Shown piece by piece: positions 482 through 61,439 of a stretch of DNA of 64,000 bases. The position numbers were made by a program, and so were the translations under genes. The notes beneath the pieces are model-generated. The model was not told where the DNA came from. It saw only the letters and a program-made list of their open reading frames with translations, and ran no database searches. Location of the stretch: the NCBI GenBank assembly GCA_947475415.1, contig CANJLH010000001.1, positions 248,001-312,000 on the forward strand, read 5' to 3'. Within the stretch, counting starts at the first letter, position 1. Each line of letters starts with the position of its first letter. Source of the stretch: Caulobacteraceae bacterium. Lineage in GTDB: Bacteria > Pseudomonadota > Alphaproteobacteria > Caulobacterales > Caulobacteraceae.

Positions 482-646
482 TTAGGGCATCTTGCTGCCG
501 ATACCGTTGAATGTGTTTCCGATACCGTTTCCAAGTAGAGTCAGTGCGGCGATGAGGGCTACACAAAGCATCGCGGCGATAAGTCCGTACTCGATGGCCG
601 TGGCGCCAGACTCGTTCTTGACAAACTTGGTCACGAACTTCGTCAT
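482..646 (-). CDS. Flp/Fap-type pilin, copy 2 (54 aa)
   Basis: A second Flp pilin lies 68 bases upstream of the first and has exactly the same length. It reads MTKFVTKFVKNESG, then ATAIEY, then a hydrophobic helix, and ends GSKMP like its neighbour. By eye about 33 of 54 residues are identical, with a fully conserved cleavage and Glu/Tyr region. The hydrophobic part differs (a Met-Leu-Cys in the helix) and the C-terminal half is richer in Gly/Asn. The pair looks like a tandem duplication followed by divergence. Both are leftward and probably transcribed from the AT-rich region at 647-948. Whether both are assembled, or one is a minor pilin, cannot be told from sequence. Confidence 0.9.
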   Translation of the reverse strand: MTKFVTKFVKNESGATAIEYGLIAAMLCVALIAALTLLGNGIGNTFNGIGSKMP

Positions 647-1365: not shown

Positions 1366-1421
1366 AGGTCACTTAAGACTGGGCGGCTATGGTCTGGATC
1401 GAGACTCCAGGAGCCGCCCAC

Positions 1422-2006
1422 ATGGCGCTTAGAAAAGCGCGAACCTCGTTCCTCCGGCGCTTCAGCCGCGCCCACCGCGGCGCGGCGGCGGTCGAGTTCG
1501 CCTTTATCGCCTTCCCGTTCCTGTTGTTGCTGTTCGGCATCGTCGAGCTGGCGATGGTCTTCGTGGTGGCGACGACCCTGGAGGGCGCGACCGACTCCGC
1601 GTCTCGGCGGATCCGCACCGGCGAATTCCAGACCAGCGGCGCCACCTCAAAGACCGACTTCCGCGACCTGGTCTGCGCGCGCATGTCCTGGCTAGCGGGC
1701 GGCTGCGCGGCCAAGCTGGTTGTCGACGTACAGACATTCGCTGTCGGGGACTATGTGACCGCGGCGGGGAGCACGCCGCAGAACCCGACCACATTCGACC
1801 CGCTGACCACCTGCTTCTCAGCCGGCGGGCCCGGGGACATCGTGCTGGTGCGCACCTACTATCCCTGGACCCTGTTCACACCGCTGCTGAACAGCGCGCT
1901 GCAGAACATGGGAACCGGCACCGGCAAACGACTGGTCTCCGCCGTCGCCGCGTTCCGCAACGAGCCCTACAACAACGATGCCACGGTCGGCGCCAAATGC
2001 ACCTGA
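1422..2006 (+). CDS. TadE-like pseudopilin
   Basis: A 194-aa TadE-family protein. A short basic N-terminus (RRFSRAHRGAAAVEF) leads into a single hydrophobic helix with the TadE motif R-G-x-x-A-V-E-F and a downstream E-L, followed by a periplasmic domain with several Cys. TadE and TadF are pseudopilins processed by the same prepilin peptidase as the Flp pilin and are needed for pilus assembly. The start at 1422 has AGGAG about 9 bases upstream; a longer reading from 1389 has none. Its 3' end overlaps the next TadE-like gene by 10 bases, so the two are very probably translated together. Confidence 0.85.
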   Translation: MALRKARTSFLRRFSRAHRGAAAVEFAFIAFPFLLLLFGIVELAMVFVVATTLEGATDSASRRIRTGEFQTSGATSKTDFRDLVCARMSWLAGGCAAKLVVDVQTFAVGDYVTAAGSTPQNPTTFDPLTTCFSAGGPGDIVLVRTYYPWTLFTPLLNSALQNMGTGTGKRLVSAVAAFRNEPYNNDATVGAKCT

Positions 2007-2542
2007 GTCGACTTCTCCGTGACACCCGCGGCCTGTCCGCGGTGGAATTCGCCCTCGTGGCGCCACTGATGGTGCTGCTCTACATGGGCCTGGCCGAGCT
2101 CACCCTGGCCATGATGGCCGAGCGCCGCGCCAGCCACTCGGCCTCCGCGGTTGCGGACCTCGTAGCCCAGTCGCCAGCCTCCATGAGCAGCGCCGATCTC
2201 GACAAGGTGCTCTATATCGGCAAGGCGGTCGTGGCCCCCTTCCCCACCGCCGGGCTCTCCTTGCGCATATCCAGCGTAAAGGCCGATGCGGCGCTTTCGC
2301 CAAAGGTGGTGTGGAGCAAGACCAGCGGGCCGGACCTGACCCGCTATAGCCAGGGCTCCACGGCGCCCAGCTTCCCGTCCGGTCTGCTGGCCGCAAATGA
2401 AACCGTGATCTCAGCCGACGTGCTCTACAAATATGACACGCCGCTCAAGCAGATCATCCCACGGACTCTCAACTTCAAGACCACCTTCTATCTGCGGCCG
2501 CGCCGCGCCGACGCCATCGCCTGTCCGGACTGCCCGGCCTAA
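1997..2542 (+). CDS. TadE/TadF-like pseudopilin
   Basis: A 181-aa TadE-like protein. The N-terminus RDTRGLSAVEFALVAP is the conserved R-G-x-x-A-V-E-F-A-L-x-x-P motif, followed by a hydrophobic segment to about residue 40 and a periplasmic remainder. It ends with a pair of Cys in CPDC. The start lies inside the 3' end of the preceding pseudopilin gene, indicating translational coupling. Its last four bases overlap the convergent aminotransferase gene. With 949-1365 it forms a three-gene accessory pilus set, separate from the main cpa operon that runs leftward out of the window. Confidence 0.85.
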   Translation: MHLSRLLRDTRGLSAVEFALVAPLMVLLYMGLAELTLAMMAERRASHSASAVADLVAQSPASMSSADLDKVLYIGKAVVAPFPTAGLSLRISSVKADAALSPKVVWSKTSGPDLTRYSQGSTAPSFPSGLLAANETVISADVLYKYDTPLKQIIPRTLNFKTTFYLRPRRADAIACPDCPA

Positions 2543-56574: not shown

Positions 56575-57510
56575 ATGGACGCAACGTCGATTCAACCGGT
56601 CTCTTTCCAGGCGTTCGGCGCCGATTTTGCGGGCTTCACCCGCGACCTGGGCAGATCGTTCGAACGCTACGGGTTCGCCGTGGTGGCTGATCACGACCTG
56701 GACCCAGTCCGACTCAATGCCGCGCTTGAGGCGACACGCGCCTTCTTCGCCCTGCCTGAGTCGGCGAAGCGGGCCTATGTCACCGGCGTCGGCGGCCAGC
56801 GGGGCTATACGCCGTTCGGGATCGAGACCGCCAAGGGCGCGGCCCACCACGACCTGAAGGAGTTCTGGCACGTGGGCCGGGATCTGCCGCCGGGCCATCG
56901 TTACGCCGCCGAGATGCCGCCCAACGTCTGGCCCAGCGAGGTCGAGGGCTTCCGGGAGCGCCTGCAGTGGCTCTACGCCGCGCTGGATGACCTGGGCCGG
57001 CGATTGCTGGAGGCGATCGCGACTTACCTGGGCCTGGATCGGCGCTTTTTCGAAGCCACGGTGGCTGACGGCAATTCTATCCTGCGGCTGCTGAAGTACC
57101 CTCCGGCGGACTTTGACGGGCCGCATATCCGCGCCGGCGCCCATGAGGACATCAATGTCATCACCCTGTTGCTGGGCGCGGAAGAGGCGGGGCTGGAGGT
57201 GCTCGACCGCGACGGCGACTGGCTGGCCATCAACCCGCCGCCGGGGGCGCTGGTCTGCAACATCGGCGACATGCTGCAGCGCCTGACCAACCATCGCCTG
57301 CCGTCCACCACGCACCGGGTGGTCAATCCGCCGCCAGAGCGGCGCGGCGTTTCACGCTATTCCACGCCGTTCTTCCTGCACTTCAACCCCGATTACCTGA
57401 TCCGCACCCTGCCGGCTTGCGTGGGTGCGGACCATCCCGACCGCTACCCCGCGCCGATCACCGCCGACGACTACCTCCGCGAACGCCTGGCGCAGATCAA
57501 GCTGATCTGA
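56575..57510 (+). CDS. Isopenicillin N synthase-like 2OG-Fe(II) oxygenase
   Basis: A 311-aa non-heme iron oxygenase. The N-terminal DIOX_N domain (FGADFAGFTRDLGRSFERYGFAVV) is followed by a double-stranded beta-helix domain. The iron ligands appear as HED in GAHEDINVITLL and the distal His in STTHRVVNPP, with the 2-oxoglutarate Arg in RYSTPFF. The closest described groups are bacterial 2-oxobutyrate or 2OG-dependent oxidases of plant IPNS/ACCO type. The substrate is not deducible. It is a stand-alone gene divergent from scoA. Confidence 0.9.
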   Translation: MDATSIQPVSFQAFGADFAGFTRDLGRSFERYGFAVVADHDLDPVRLNAALEATRAFFALPESAKRAYVTGVGGQRGYTPFGIETAKGAAHHDLKEFWHVGRDLPPGHRYAAEMPPNVWPSEVEGFRERLQWLYAALDDLGRRLLEAIATYLGLDRRFFEATVADGNSILRLLKYPPADFDGPHIRAGAHEDINVITLLLGAEEAGLEVLDRDGDWLAINPPPGALVCNIGDMLQRLTNHRLPSTTHRVVNPPPERRGVSRYSTPFFLHFNPDYLIRTLPACVGADHPDRYPAPITADDYLRERLAQIKLI

Positions 57511-57521
57511 GCGGTCAGTCC

Positions 57522-59447
57522 CTAGTGCGATATTCGTAGCGAGTTCAGGTCGGCGCCGATCGCCTTGAAGGCGGCGGACAGATCGGAGCCGGAGGTGGGA
57601 AGATACTTGTGATTGGCGTCGGTCGCGCACTGGGTCATCAGCGTCTCGGCCGTGGTGTCGCCAGTGATGTCAAAGCCCACCGTGTAGACAACGATTTTGG
57701 CGTCCTTCATGGCTTGGCAGAGCGCCAGTGACTGGTCGAGCGTTGCGCCGTTGGTGGGGGCGCAATTGATGCGGTCATCACCGCCGTAGGTGGAGGTGTT
57801 GGCGCTGACGCCGTTGCAGAACGCGGTGTTGAGCGCGCCGTCGGTCATCAGCACCACCGCCTTGAGGGTGTTGGCCTGGGTATAGGATGCGCCCCCGCGG
57901 CCGCTAGGGAACAGGTACGACCAGTTGGGCGAAACCATATACCAACCCCAGGCGACGCCCACGTGACCGGCGGTGGTGCCGGCCGCCGTCAACGTTCCGA
58001 TCATCGTCTTAAGGGCGTTCTTGTCGGTGGACAGGGGAACGATTTCATTGGTCACGCAAGGGAACGACGAACTGAGCGAGTATGGTGCCACCGCAATCTC
58101 CGCCGGGTAGTTGAAACCGACGAAGGCTGTGCTCGGGGCGGCATCAGTATAGGCTTCGGTTCCCGTACGCTCGCTGACGCAGTTTGTCGTCTGGAGCGCC
58201 TTGATACCGCCGGAAACGTTGGTGTAGCGGTAGTATTTGCACCCGTAGTTGGTGCAGGAAGCCGAACCGCCGGAGGTATAGGTCCCCGAAGCGCCCACCG
58301 CCTCGGTGAGGGAAAAGGAATTCGTCGTACTGTCAGCAACCGTATACACGTAGTCGTTGACGTTGTGGCTCGACCCCCCACTGGAACTATAGGCGGTGGT
58401 GATCCCGCCCAGGCTGCTCACGACGACGTAGGTTCCATTAGCGAAACCGTGGGCCGCGGAAGTCACCACCAGAGAACATGTGGCCACCTGGCACTTTGTC
58501 ACCGTGCCGACGTTTGGGGCGCTGTAGTTGCTGTATGAACTGCCATTCACCCCGGAAAGCTGGAAGGTATTGGTGGTCTTTCCGGCCACCGTGTAAACTT
58601 TGTTGTTCAACTGCGTCATGCCGTTGACGCCCTTTATGAACACCTTGTCGCCATTGGCGAAGCCATGGGCGTTGGAGGTGATCACTACCGGATTGGCCTT
58701 GGTGGCGCCTGTAATGGTCTTGGCCGTCCCCGTCGCCCAGGAGGCGGCCGTGATGGTCTTGGCCGCGGTCGGGGCCCCACGGACCTGGTCAGCATAGGCG
58801 CCCGCATTGACACCGTTTGACCAGGGCACGACGGCGACCTTGGAATAAAACGGCGTCTGCTGGTCCTTGACCACCAGGTCAACGAGCTGCTGGGCGGCCG
58901 TCCGCAGGTCGCCGATCTTGTTGTTGGTGTCCATCGACTTGGTGACGTCGAGAACCAGCGCCACCTCAAGGTTCTTGGAATTGCGAATGACATCGCTGGA
59001 CACAACGATGGCCGGATTGGCCCAGATCGAGGGCGCCAGCGATAGCGACTGAATCGTCGCCGTGGCGGTAACGTGGGTGTTGTTGTCTGTGAGGGCGAAG
59101 TCCGAAGACACCAGGGTGGCGCCGCGGAGCAGCTTCAGGTTGGCGCTCAGCGCCGCGTCGCCCACCTGATCGATCTCCGCCGATGTATTGTAGGTCGTCC
59201 GCGCCGCATAGAGGGCGGCCGCATCGAGGGCGTCCTGGGCCGCGGCCCTCTGCTCGTGATTGGTGTAGACGTCGAACAGACCGAGGGTGAGGGGCAGGAT
59301 CACCACCAGCGACAGGGCGAACATCACAGCCGCCATGCCGCGCTCGTCCTTGGCGCCGGCGATCGCGAATTTTTTCGCCCAGGGCAGCAAGCTCTGAATG
59401 CGCCCAGGCCAGGAACGGTGTCTCGACACGTTAAGCCCCTTCTTCAC
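57522..59447 (-). CDS. TadG-like von Willebrand A pilus protein with inserted repeats
   Basis: A 641-aa TadG-family protein. The basic N-terminus KDERGMAAVMFALSLVVILP is the Flp pseudopilin-like helix (R-G-x-x-A-V-x-F). A von Willebrand A domain follows with a metal motif D-V-T-K-S near residues 167-171. Residues about 248-400 interrupt that domain with two copies of a module containing S-x-A-H-G-F-A-N-G and V-Y-T-V-A-x-x-T-T-N-x-F-x-L. This module resembles the FCCH-like domain seen in phage tail and adhesin proteins. TadG is thought to span to the outer membrane in tad systems. A perfect CtrA box lies 33 bases upstream of the start. Confidence 0.85.
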   Translation of the reverse strand: MKKGLNVSRHRSWPGRIQSLLPWAKKFAIAGAKDERGMAAVMFALSLVVILPLTLGLFDVYTNHEQRAAAQDALDAAALYAARTTYNTSAEIDQVGDAALSANLKLLRGATLVSSDFALTDNNTHVTATATIQSLSLAPSIWANPAIVVSSDVIRNSKNLEVALVLDVTKSMDTNNKIGDLRTAAQQLVDLVVKDQQTPFYSKVAVVPWSNGVNAGAYADQVRGAPTAAKTITAASWATGTAKTITGATKANPVVITSNAHGFANGDKVFIKGVNGMTQLNNKVYTVAGKTTNTFQLSGVNGSSYSNYSAPNVGTVTKCQVATCSLVVTSAAHGFANGTYVVVSSLGGITTAYSSSGGSSHNVNDYVYTVADSTTNSFSLTEAVGASGTYTSGGSASCTNYGCKYYRYTNVSGGIKALQTTNCVSERTGTEAYTDAAPSTAFVGFNYPAEIAVAPYSLSSSFPCVTNEIVPLSTDKNALKTMIGTLTAAGTTAGHVGVAWGWYMVSPNWSYLFPSGRGGASYTQANTLKAVVLMTDGALNTAFCNGVSANTSTYGGDDRINCAPTNGATLDQSLALCQAMKDAKIVVYTVGFDITGDTTAETLMTQCATDANHKYLPTSGSDLSAAFKAIGADLNSLRISH

Positions 59448-59514: not shown

Positions 59515-61308
59515 TCACCACCCGCACTTTTCGCTCTTGATCTGGGCGGACAGCCAACGGTCCAACGGCCGGAAGTATTCGATCAGGCCTGCGGCGTCCC
59601 CATGGGTTTCACCGCTGAACGCGGCCATGGCCTCTGGCCAGGGACGGGACTGGCCCATTGCCAGCATGGCGTTCAACCGCGCGCCAACCTGCTTCTGGCC
59701 GTACAGGGAACAGCGGTGCAGCGGCCCCTTCCAACCCGCCTGACGGCAGGCGGCGCGGTGGAACTGGAACTCATAGTTGAAGGCCAGGAAGTAGCGCATG
59801 TAGGGCACACTGGCGGCGATGTGGTACTTCGCGCCGGGATCGAAGGCGTCCGCCGGGCGGGGGCCGGGCGGCGCGACGCCCTGGTAGCGGGTGCGCAATC
59901 TCCACCAGGCTGCATTGTAGTCGGAAGGCTGGACCTCCCCGGAAAACACCTGCCATCGCCATTTGTCGATCAGCAGGCCGAAGGGCAGGAACGCCACCTT
60001 GTCCAGGGCCATCTTCAGCAGGAAGGGGATGTCTTCATCGACGCCGGGAACCGCGTTTATGAGGCCGATCTGCTGCAGGTAGGTGGGCGTCTGGGCTGAA
60101 AGGCCCGCCAGGTCGCCGATCGCCTCATGGAACCCGTCGTTCGCCCCGCCTTTGAACAGATAGGGCTGATCGGCATATGCGCGCTGGTAGTAGTTGTGAC
60201 CGAGCTCATGGTGGACGGTGTCGAAGTCCTCGCCATTGACCTTGAGGCAGGCCTTAATGCGCAGATCGTCGCGGTCGTTCACGTCCCAGGCCGAGGCGTG
60301 GCAAACCACTTCGCGGTCACGCGGCCGGGTGAGCATGGAACGCTCCCAGAAGGTCTGGGGCAGCGGCGCAAAGCCCAGGGATGAATAGAAAGCCTCGCCA
60401 GTGCGGACCATTTTTTCCGGCGTATAGCCGGCCTGCTTCAGGACGTCGTCGAGCTTGTAGCTGGACTTGATGGAACTCGGCGCCACGACGTCATAGATCC
60501 CGCCCCATTGCTGAGCCCACATATTCCCCAGCAGATCCGCACGGATCGGCCCGGTGCGCGGCTGAACCGCATCGCCGTAGTGGTCGTTCAGCCGCGCCCG
60601 CACGTAACAGTGAAGCCGTCGGTAGAAGGGTTCGATCTGGCCCCACATGCGTTCGGTTTCGGCGGCGAAGGCCGCCGGCGGCATGTCGTAGTTCGACCGC
60701 CAGAGCTCGCCAGCGTCCTTGTGGCCCAAGCCTTGCGCGCCCTCATTGGCGAGAGCCACCAGGCGCGCGTAGTCGGATTGCATCGGTTTGGCGGTGGCGT
60801 GCCAGCCTTCCCAAACAGCCCTGAGTTCGGCCGGGTCACGGGAAGCAGTCATCACGTCCGCGGCGTCGTCGAGGGTGAGCGTCTTGCCGCCGTAGGCGAA
60901 CTTGGCGGTGGCGTAGGCGGCGTTCAGACGCGAGTCCAGACCGGCCATCTCTTCGGCGGCGCCCGGCCGATCCGCCGCCGGCAGGTTGAGGTAGAGCTTG
61001 AGAAGATTGAGCTTGCGCGCGGTGGTGGGATCGACCGCCACACCGTCGAAACGCGCGGCCGCCTTGGCGTAGCGCGTGGCCATGGCCGTCTGTTCGGCCT
61101 GAGCGCGGGCGTCCAACCAAAGGGTGTCGTCGATGATGTAGGTGGCCCGGACCCAGGAAACCCGCGCCGCATATTCGTTGAAGGCCGCCAGTTCCGCTTC
61201 GGCCTTTTCCACAAAGGCCTTGGCCTCAACAGCATCGGGCGCCTTTGGCTCAGCGGCGGCGGCGGTCGCGACGACTACGGCGGCGAAGGCGGGCAGCAAA
61301 TACCTCAT
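59515..61308 (-). CDS. M2-family (ACE-like) dicarboxypeptidase
   Basis: A 597-aa zinc peptidase of the angiotensin-converting-enzyme family. The zinc motif is H367-E-L-G-H371 in TVHHELGHNYYQ, with the downstream Glu in GFHEAIGDLAGLS. The chloride- and substrate-site region FEFQFHRAAC and RPLDRWLSAQ-type end fit the family (bacterial members 590-680 aa). The signal peptide (YLLPAFAAVVVATAAAAE) makes it periplasmic or secreted. It removes C-terminal dipeptides from peptides. ATG 61308 directly precedes the signal peptide. The stop at 59515 is 21 bases from the CtrA box of tadG. Confidence 0.93.
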   Translation of the reverse strand: MRYLLPAFAAVVVATAAAAEPKAPDAVEAKAFVEKAEAELAAFNEYAARVSWVRATYIIDDTLWLDARAQAEQTAMATRYAKAAARFDGVAVDPTTARKLNLLKLYLNLPAADRPGAAEEMAGLDSRLNAAYATAKFAYGGKTLTLDDAADVMTASRDPAELRAVWEGWHATAKPMQSDYARLVALANEGAQGLGHKDAGELWRSNYDMPPAAFAAETERMWGQIEPFYRRLHCYVRARLNDHYGDAVQPRTGPIRADLLGNMWAQQWGGIYDVVAPSSIKSSYKLDDVLKQAGYTPEKMVRTGEAFYSSLGFAPLPQTFWERSMLTRPRDREVVCHASAWDVNDRDDLRIKACLKVNGEDFDTVHHELGHNYYQRAYADQPYLFKGGANDGFHEAIGDLAGLSAQTPTYLQQIGLINAVPGVDEDIPFLLKMALDKVAFLPFGLLIDKWRWQVFSGEVQPSDYNAAWWRLRTRYQGVAPPGPRPADAFDPGAKYHIAASVPYMRYFLAFNYEFQFHRAACRQAGWKGPLHRCSLYGQKQVGARLNAMLAMGQSRPWPEAMAAFSGETHGDAAGLIEYFRPLDRWLSAQIKSEKCGW

Positions 61309-61439
61309 GCAGCGGACCCCATGCATCACATCCCGATCTATCGGCTGATACCGCTGCTGAACGTCGGGTCAAGCGCTGTCGGGACGATTGACCGGACGGG
61401 CGCTTTATCGTCCCATCCCGGTGAAGCAGGTGACTCCCC

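Follow-up and report, generated by a model that had tools for sequence, protein, structure and literature searches.

What are two modules resembling parts of a phage tail doing inside the von Willebrand (vWA) domain of a pilus protein? The question is raised by a gene of a Caulobacteraceae bacterium, lying on the stretch of 64,000 nucleotides that we analyzed (the window; assembly GCA_947475415.1, contig CANJLH010000001.1, positions 248,001 to 312,000). Sequence comparisons and predicted models together demonstrate a product with a pilin-like start, a vWA domain with all five MIDAS residues, and, on a loop of that domain, two tandem modules of the E1_FCCH kind related to modules of phage tails. 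The gene and its parts, in coordinates of the window, are as follows.

57522 to 59447, minus strand: gene for a CpaL/TadG-type minor pilin, vWA domain with two inserted E1_FCCH modules; 641 amino acids, GTG start
59199 to 59339, minus strand: Tad pilin-like N-terminal segment, residues 37-83 (PF13400, E = 1.5e-05, 25.6 bits, cut-off 22.3)
58758 to 58982, minus strand: first part of the vWA domain, about residues 156-230 (invariant columns, model, structural alignment)
58935 to 58949, minus strand: MIDAS residues D167-x-T169-x-S171, within the first part of the vWA domain
58506 to 58721, minus strand: FCCH / phage-tail-like module 1, residues 243-314 (Pfam, PHROGs, fold searches, HMM built in this work)
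58476 to 58493, minus strand: cysteine pair after module 1, CQVATC, residues 319-324
58254 to 58496, minus strand: second FCCH / phage-tail-like module (residues 318-398), which has an additional loop rich in Ser and Gly (alignment, HMM built in this work)
58239 to 58256, minus strand: cysteine pair after module 2, CTNYGC, residues 398-403
57525 to 58235, minus strand: second part of the vWA domain, residues 405-641 (alignment, structural alignment)
57972 to 57974, minus strand: MIDAS residue T492
57840 to 57842, minus strand: MIDAS residue D536

An earlier note on this DNA had taken the product for a TadG-like protein, and the pilin-like segment, scoring over the PF13400 cut-off, together with a vWA domain containing the full MIDAS, bears this out. 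The vWA domain itself gives a weak signal in Pfam for the 641-residue protein (PF13519, E = 0.13). The five MIDAS residues D167, T169, S171, T492 and D536 are unchanged in all 14 aligned sequences, and a script counted the pattern in 63 of 66 proteins (including the TadG-like paralogues L077 and L005); two of the three misses show the motif in the printed stretch, the script having caught an earlier place. The proposal that the vWA domain is interrupted is likewise sustained. The vWA alignments span residues 155-641, and relatives lacking modules keep aligned vWA halves; thus L014 has one module and L016 none, and the vWA halves of both still align. In the full-length model, calculated from an alignment of 14 sequences and of modest confidence (mean pLDDT 69.7, pTM 0.57), the insert lies between a strand at 202-209 with a helix at 217-223 and the later strands. 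The best match to the vWA part of this model (155-641 around the insert) is Mfa5, a protein of a pilus tip (Z = 24.5, rmsd 3.3, 202 residues); SpaC gives Z = 20.4. Going by their entry titles both are pilus tip or adhesin proteins, but they belong to other pilus systems and the likeness is drawn on the vWA fold alone.

To which family do the modules belong? The Pfam family E1_FCCH (PF16190) matches the protein at E = 1.4e-13 and 51.2 bits (curated cut-off 29.5), in two stretches each of which passes alone. The PHROGs family phrog_584 (major tail protein) also matches in two stretches (E = 7e-16), and no other PHROG family does so at E ≤ 1. Two copies had been placed by the earlier note at about residues 248-310 and 322-400; our HMM finds both, at 243-314 and 318-398, with 41% identity between them over 69 residues. 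Elsewhere the signals are faint. In NCBIfam, ubiquitin-activating enzyme E1 is matched weakly at residues 245-309 (E = 0.0052, far under the model cut-off), and a sequence search of the PDB gave weak matches to an entry named 'Structural protein' (26dk, E = 0.0052) and to an E1 FCCH domain (2lzj, E = 0.032).

The two-module segment was also modeled alone (180 residues, 12 sequences, pLDDT 75.0), and in the predicted models the insert forms separate beta-barrels, apart from the normal vWA fold. On searching the PDB with Foldseek, the best 50 of 372 matches to the two-module model were all E1 enzymes or their complexes, the top one with E = 7.4e-05. VIA alignment of the barrel model gave Z = 12.7 (rmsd 1.4, 79 residues) for Uba6 FCCH, Z = 11.2 (rmsd 1.7, 81 residues) for the phage T1 tail tube, and Z = 10.9 and 8.9 for two phage head-tail structures; these fold-search alignments cover mainly module 1, module 2 being barely included. 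Phage endosialidases follow at Z = 8.1 (phi92) and Z = 6.3-6.6 (the K1F group), the latter in the range where the tool warns of a common arrangement. A library of viral structures returned phage proteins, of which one is named FCCH domain containing and two baseplate wedge. The likeness to the FCCH domain of ubiquitin-activating enzymes is therefore one of Pfam score and of Foldseek and VIA alignment to Uba6 and Uba1; the window protein differs in being of pilin type, outside any E1 context and with flanking cysteine pairs, and no role in ubiquitin chemistry is implied.

A split vWA domain of this kind is already known. CpaL of Caulobacter crescentus, described in 2025 (PMC12607857), has a pilin-like module and then a single vWA domain, which a tandem pair of beta-rich domains (204-383) divides. 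These are two six-stranded barrels, for which the authors' Dali search gave no strong match, and the identity of the barrels is not reported in the parts of that paper available to us. Its MIDAS residues are D160, T162, S164, T470 and D515. According to the same paper, loss of cpaL leaves the cells with pili that are longer but reduced in number, with intermediate resistance to phage phiCbK and with stimulated production of holdfast; CpaL is placed at the pilus tip with CpaJ and CpaK by AlphaFold prediction, and is proposed as a candidate mechanosensor of the C. crescentus pili. A cryo-ET study obtained no density for the CpaL vWA domain (PMC13170226).

Are the published barrels also FCCH modules? 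A protein from another genome of the same family (G077; entered as both L020 and L101) has 626 amino acids with D160, T162, S164, T470 and D515 exactly as printed for CpaL, and matches E1_FCCH twice in Pfam (E = 7.4e-27). Since this protein has the length and MIDAS numbering of CpaL, we infer from sequence that the CpaL barrels are FCCH modules. The literature searched (FCCH combined with TadG, Caulobacter or pilus, most subscription papers lying outside its scope) yielded no report of this identity. The word ubiquitin is absent from the main text of the CpaL paper as available, and neither a range of barrel copy number nor cysteine pairs were found in the passages of it that we consulted. A search combining FCCH with phage tails returned nothing on this subject, judging by titles.

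The window protein has a single match in genome G077 at E ≤ 1e-5, the CpaL-fingerprint protein, with about 48% identity. In the reverse direction, four TadG-like proteins from the window's genome were compared with the CpaL-fingerprint protein, and the window protein came out as its best match. It shares with CpaL the pilin-like module, the vWA domain split by two tandem six-stranded barrels, the MIDAS residues and a gene outside the main pilus cluster; the window's genome differs in having two such proteins. The second (G000:C7:19684-21570; L002/L064) is 57% identical to the window protein and groups with it on a tree of 65 module-stripped cores (starred support 100/99). It has two modules by our HMM and a single match to PF16190, and the adjacent gene resembles cysNC by eye. 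On the same tree, for which the bootstrap had not settled, the window clade does not lie beside that of the CpaL-fingerprint protein. We therefore describe the window protein as of the CpaL family, and as the positional counterpart of cpaL by gene neighborhood, strict one-to-one orthology being unproved.

The oxygenase gene of this neighborhood, and the pilus genes elsewhere in the window, are as follows.

56575 to 57510, plus strand: 2OG-Fe(II) oxygenase-like gene, convergent neighbor of the pilin gene and recurring next to many cpaL-like genes (family taken from the 65% identical counterpart at L101)
255 to 392 and 488 to 625, minus strand: two Flp/Fap pilin genes, adjoining a cpaABCDEF-GH-like cluster just beyond the window
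1389 to 2006 and 1997 to 2542, plus strand: a pair of genes for TadE-like minor pilins, putatively CpaJ and CpaK, going solely by position and family

CpaJ and CpaK are the proposed partners of CpaL (PMC12607857, in the parts available). Just beyond the window there are matches to a prepilin peptidase, RcpC/CpaB, a secretin, CpaD, two T2SSF platform proteins and two ATPases, one of the AAA_31 family (resembling CpaE in its position) and one of the T2SSE family (CpaF-like). This main pilus locus is about 57 kb from the window gene on the same contig, so that the gene stands outside the cluster, as cpaL does in C. crescentus. On the other side, 67 bases upstream of the pilin gene and on the same strand, positions 59515-61329 (minus) encode a full-length Peptidase_M2 protein (angiotensin-converting-enzyme family, E = 1e-208).

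The oxygenase gene is convergent with the cpaL-like gene both in the window's genome and in G077, the two oxygenases sharing 65% identity. A relative was found in 37 of 105 loci (31 genomes), the set including phage and other loci that lack a cpaL-like gene, and at 6 of 20 further stretches around TadG-like genes, with a partial match at one end of another; it is missing around several CpaL-like genes, among them, in the window's genus, the genes of the relatives with a single module (G088, G098). The slot beside the oxygenase is occupied in five genomes (G093, G103, G082, G091 and G101) by a TadG-like vWA protein without FCCH modules, the printed examples being of a different TadG subfamily by eye. 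Evidently modules are not needed for the role of this slot, since module-free TadG-like proteins occupy it. Among these module-free occupants, L186, L187 and L197-L199 differ in their middle region, as if tips had been swapped. The variation in the slot agrees, by analogy, with the exchangeable tips of the Myxococcus Kil/Tad pili, which bear at their ends TadE/F/G-like minor pilins with a large and variable domain; the comparison differs in that the extra domain of KilN4 is described as having no structural homology in the PDB (PMC12075869, in the parts available).

How widely does the combination of modules and pilin occur? PF16190 matches were found in 26 of 119 genomes of the family and in 3 of the 17 sampled from the window's genus. 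In the order Caulobacterales there are 100 matches in 50 of 249 genomes, falling in five families. Ninety-three of these overlap a match to the window protein at E ≤ 1e-40 (a query that itself holds modules, the listed rows including vWA sequence), and the other seven lie within 1200 bases of one. A survey of the class found the module in 14 of 385 genomes, three of them in the window's family. Ten module-containing ORFs come from ten of the other eleven; other phage tail families are matched by eight of these ORFs, and L046 and L057 match nothing but phrog_584, which is the module itself. Two further places, L063 and L059 (below the cut-off at E = 9.6e-4), stand outside the phage-tail assignment. 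Thus, in the genomes searched, the module belongs within Caulobacterales to CpaL-like pilins, and elsewhere in the class was seen in phage-type tail genes. All genome counts are lower bounds because PF16190 misses diverged modules: L032, L034, L036 and L038 have two each by our HMM, and their genomes none by PF16190. Presence in all TadG-like proteins, which the earlier note named as counting against its reading, is not what we see: PF16190 matches only 3 of 17 genomes in the genus, and two TadG-like paralogues in the same genome as the window protein have no module. At two places, G664:C5 and G650:C1:2742046-2743190, the halves of a CpaL-like match are in separate open frames (443/313 and 344/243 amino acids, respectively), perhaps through a broken gene or an assembly error.

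The resemblance of the modules to phage tail proteins, proposed from the window alone, is upheld by phrog_584, by sequence relatives in phages and by the fold match to the T1 tail tube. A tail tubular protein B of a Pelagibacter phage has 63% identity to the module over 46 residues. Twenty-eight phage records contain the module at E up to 0.01: six are annotated tail or tail tubular, two phage stabilization, two tip attachment protein and one chitin-binding type-3 domain, the remaining 17 being hypothetical or named only for the FCCH domain, and none is annotated as a fibre. As for Caulobacter phages as possible donors of the module, none appears by name among these 28, or among the best 60 of 69 module records at E ≤ 10. 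The correspondence with phrog_584, tail tubular protein B and the T1 tail tube is one of module sequence and fold, and the rest of a tail protein is missing from the window protein, where only the modules match PHROGs and the remainder is pilin and vWA. Conversely, the pilin/vWA core found no match at E ≤ 0.01 among the viral ORFs examined.

There is a further difference between the pilus and viral modules. A pair of cysteines, C-x(3-9)-C, follows 118 of 126 pilus modules (taken at E < 0.01, not made distinct), and all eight modules lacking it are second modules of two-module proteins. None of 99 viral modules, all distinct and drawn from 72 loci (taken at E < 0.001), is followed by the same pattern. 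These counts come from related sequences and are not independent events. The module-free L016 retains one cysteine pair at the empty site. From the sequence pattern, we interpret the pairs as probable disulfide-like staples.

The number of modules varies between relatives. Among 64 CpaL-like proteins, one has no module, seven have one, 52 have two, one has three and three have four; the set tells us no frequencies, because it was made up mostly of best matches to the window protein with a few chosen by module number (L097-L100), and so favors module carriers. The proteins with three or four tandem modules are L097 (G685:C96), L098 and L099 (both G699), and L015. Mapped on the core tree, the copy number has changed at least eight times for all groups together. 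G111 supplies a second module-free member, the first of its tandem copies, alongside one with two modules. Comparison of the sequences thus points to the barrels as an add-on to the vWA domain, present in from zero to four copies. Arrays of three TadG-like genes at G111:C42, G047:C1 and G022:C6 (L200-L202) have one or two members with modules and the others with none. In L025 (897 amino acids) and L026 (797 amino acids) the modules begin near residues 508 and 410, reflecting long N-terminal extensions or overextended starts.

The rate of divergence was compared by domain for 43 of the 52 two-module proteins, the strict pattern having missed the MIDAS of the other nine. For 238 pairs with a vWA identity of 55-70%, the median identities are 43.4% and 44.3% for modules 1 and 2; the two parts of the vWA domain stand at 61.2% and 56.8%, and the pilin part at 51.8%. 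At a vWA identity of 45-55% (615 pairs) the corresponding values are 43.5% and 38.6%, 55.6% and 49.4%, and 33.9%. For the 23 pairs at 30-45%, module 1 (50.0%) is set against vWA parts at 47.0% and 40.6%. For distant pairs the modules are less variable than the pilin part. The divergence of the modules therefore speaks for a variable contact role, as far as sequence comparison may indicate one, but does not prove it.

What, then, might the barrels do? We consider it probable that the protein works as a Tad minor pilin of the CpaL family, with its vWA/MIDAS domain at the pilus tip and its barrels as cysteine-stapled arms. It would sit at the tip with the TadE-like pilins, as predicted for CpaL in C. 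crescentus, and its vWA/MIDAS domain would grip surfaces or sense tension. The barrels on the vWA loop, each usually followed by its disulfide-like cysteine pair, would form a stiff arm that may determine both the contacts of the tip and its reach. Whether such an arm binds or only spaces is a choice between two readings that are about equally likely on present evidence.

The earlier note took the barrels for an adhesive or receptor-binding element, which would bind a surface glycan or other ligand. We regard this as possible, at rather less than an even chance. It is favored by the faster divergence of the modules relative to the vWA core where vWA identity is 55-70%, by the changes in copy number, by the weaker alignment of the fold with phage endosialidase domains, and by the two tip attachment proteins among the 28 phage records. 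Yet the records are mostly tail or hypothetical proteins with no fibre among them, a shared fold shows no function, and the binding site is putative. Moreover, in the 23 most diverged pairs module 1 is no less conserved than the vWA parts (50% compared with 41-47%), the pilin part outpaces the modules in variation among distant pairs, and the barrels of CpaL are described as pointing away from the MIDAS (PMC12607857, in the parts available).

That the barrels are passive spacers or stiffeners, which bind nothing themselves but hold the vWA domain or alter the tip's reach, is a similarly tentative proposition. Bead-like tandem copies, from none to four at a single site, with cysteine pairs between the beads, are what such a part might look like, and the module-free proteins (L016 and the first copy at G111) keep their vWA core. 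However, the modules are inserted in a loop of the vWA domain, not between it and the pilin, and therefore would not lengthen the stalk; and the quicker divergence of the modules over some of the range suggests something more than a rod.

A recent capture from a phage, or an insertion linked to a prophage, with no lasting role, is very improbable. The sequence relatives in phages, such as the Pelagibacter tail tubular protein B, are in its favor, but the modules occur in five families of the order and the neighbors, as far as seen, are ordinary chromosomal genes. A tree of modules including 18 from phages also counts against it. The second modules of all 52 two-module proteins share one branch (support 0.956), so the pair looks old. 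On the same side lie six first modules of two-module proteins, one module of a four-module protein and one of a one-module protein; all 18 phage modules are on the other side, mixed among most of the first modules. The modules are short and most supports low, such that the tree cannot orient the transfer between pilus module 1 and the phages. Finally, the notion that residues 243-398 are an ordinary piece of the TadG vWA fold can be dismissed with near certainty, given the Pfam and fold matches to a separate domain and the homologs that have no equivalent of these residues; nothing was found in its favor.

We return to the stapled arm of a CpaL-family tip protein as the preferred reading. New here are the association of the module with CpaL-like matches across the order, the range of zero to four copies, and the cysteine pair that was not seen after viral modules. 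Naming the CpaL barrels as FCCH or phage-tail modules turns an anonymous region into a testable one, and the natural variants with 0, 1, 2, 3 or 4 copies, together with the non-viral cysteine pair, offer direct tests. The same naming shows one small barrel in repeated use, across ubiquitin enzymes, phage tails and pilus tips. Should the barrels be inert spacers, the significance would be modest. A bolder and rather unlikely extension is that the pilus tip of Caulobacterales co-opted a phage-tail module as an extracellular, cysteine-stapled arm, whose copies and sequence would be tuned by lineage and would decide the specificity for surface or partner, and possibly sensitivity to phage. If that were true, a pilus that is exploited by pilus-dependent phages would bear a phage-type contact domain at its own end.
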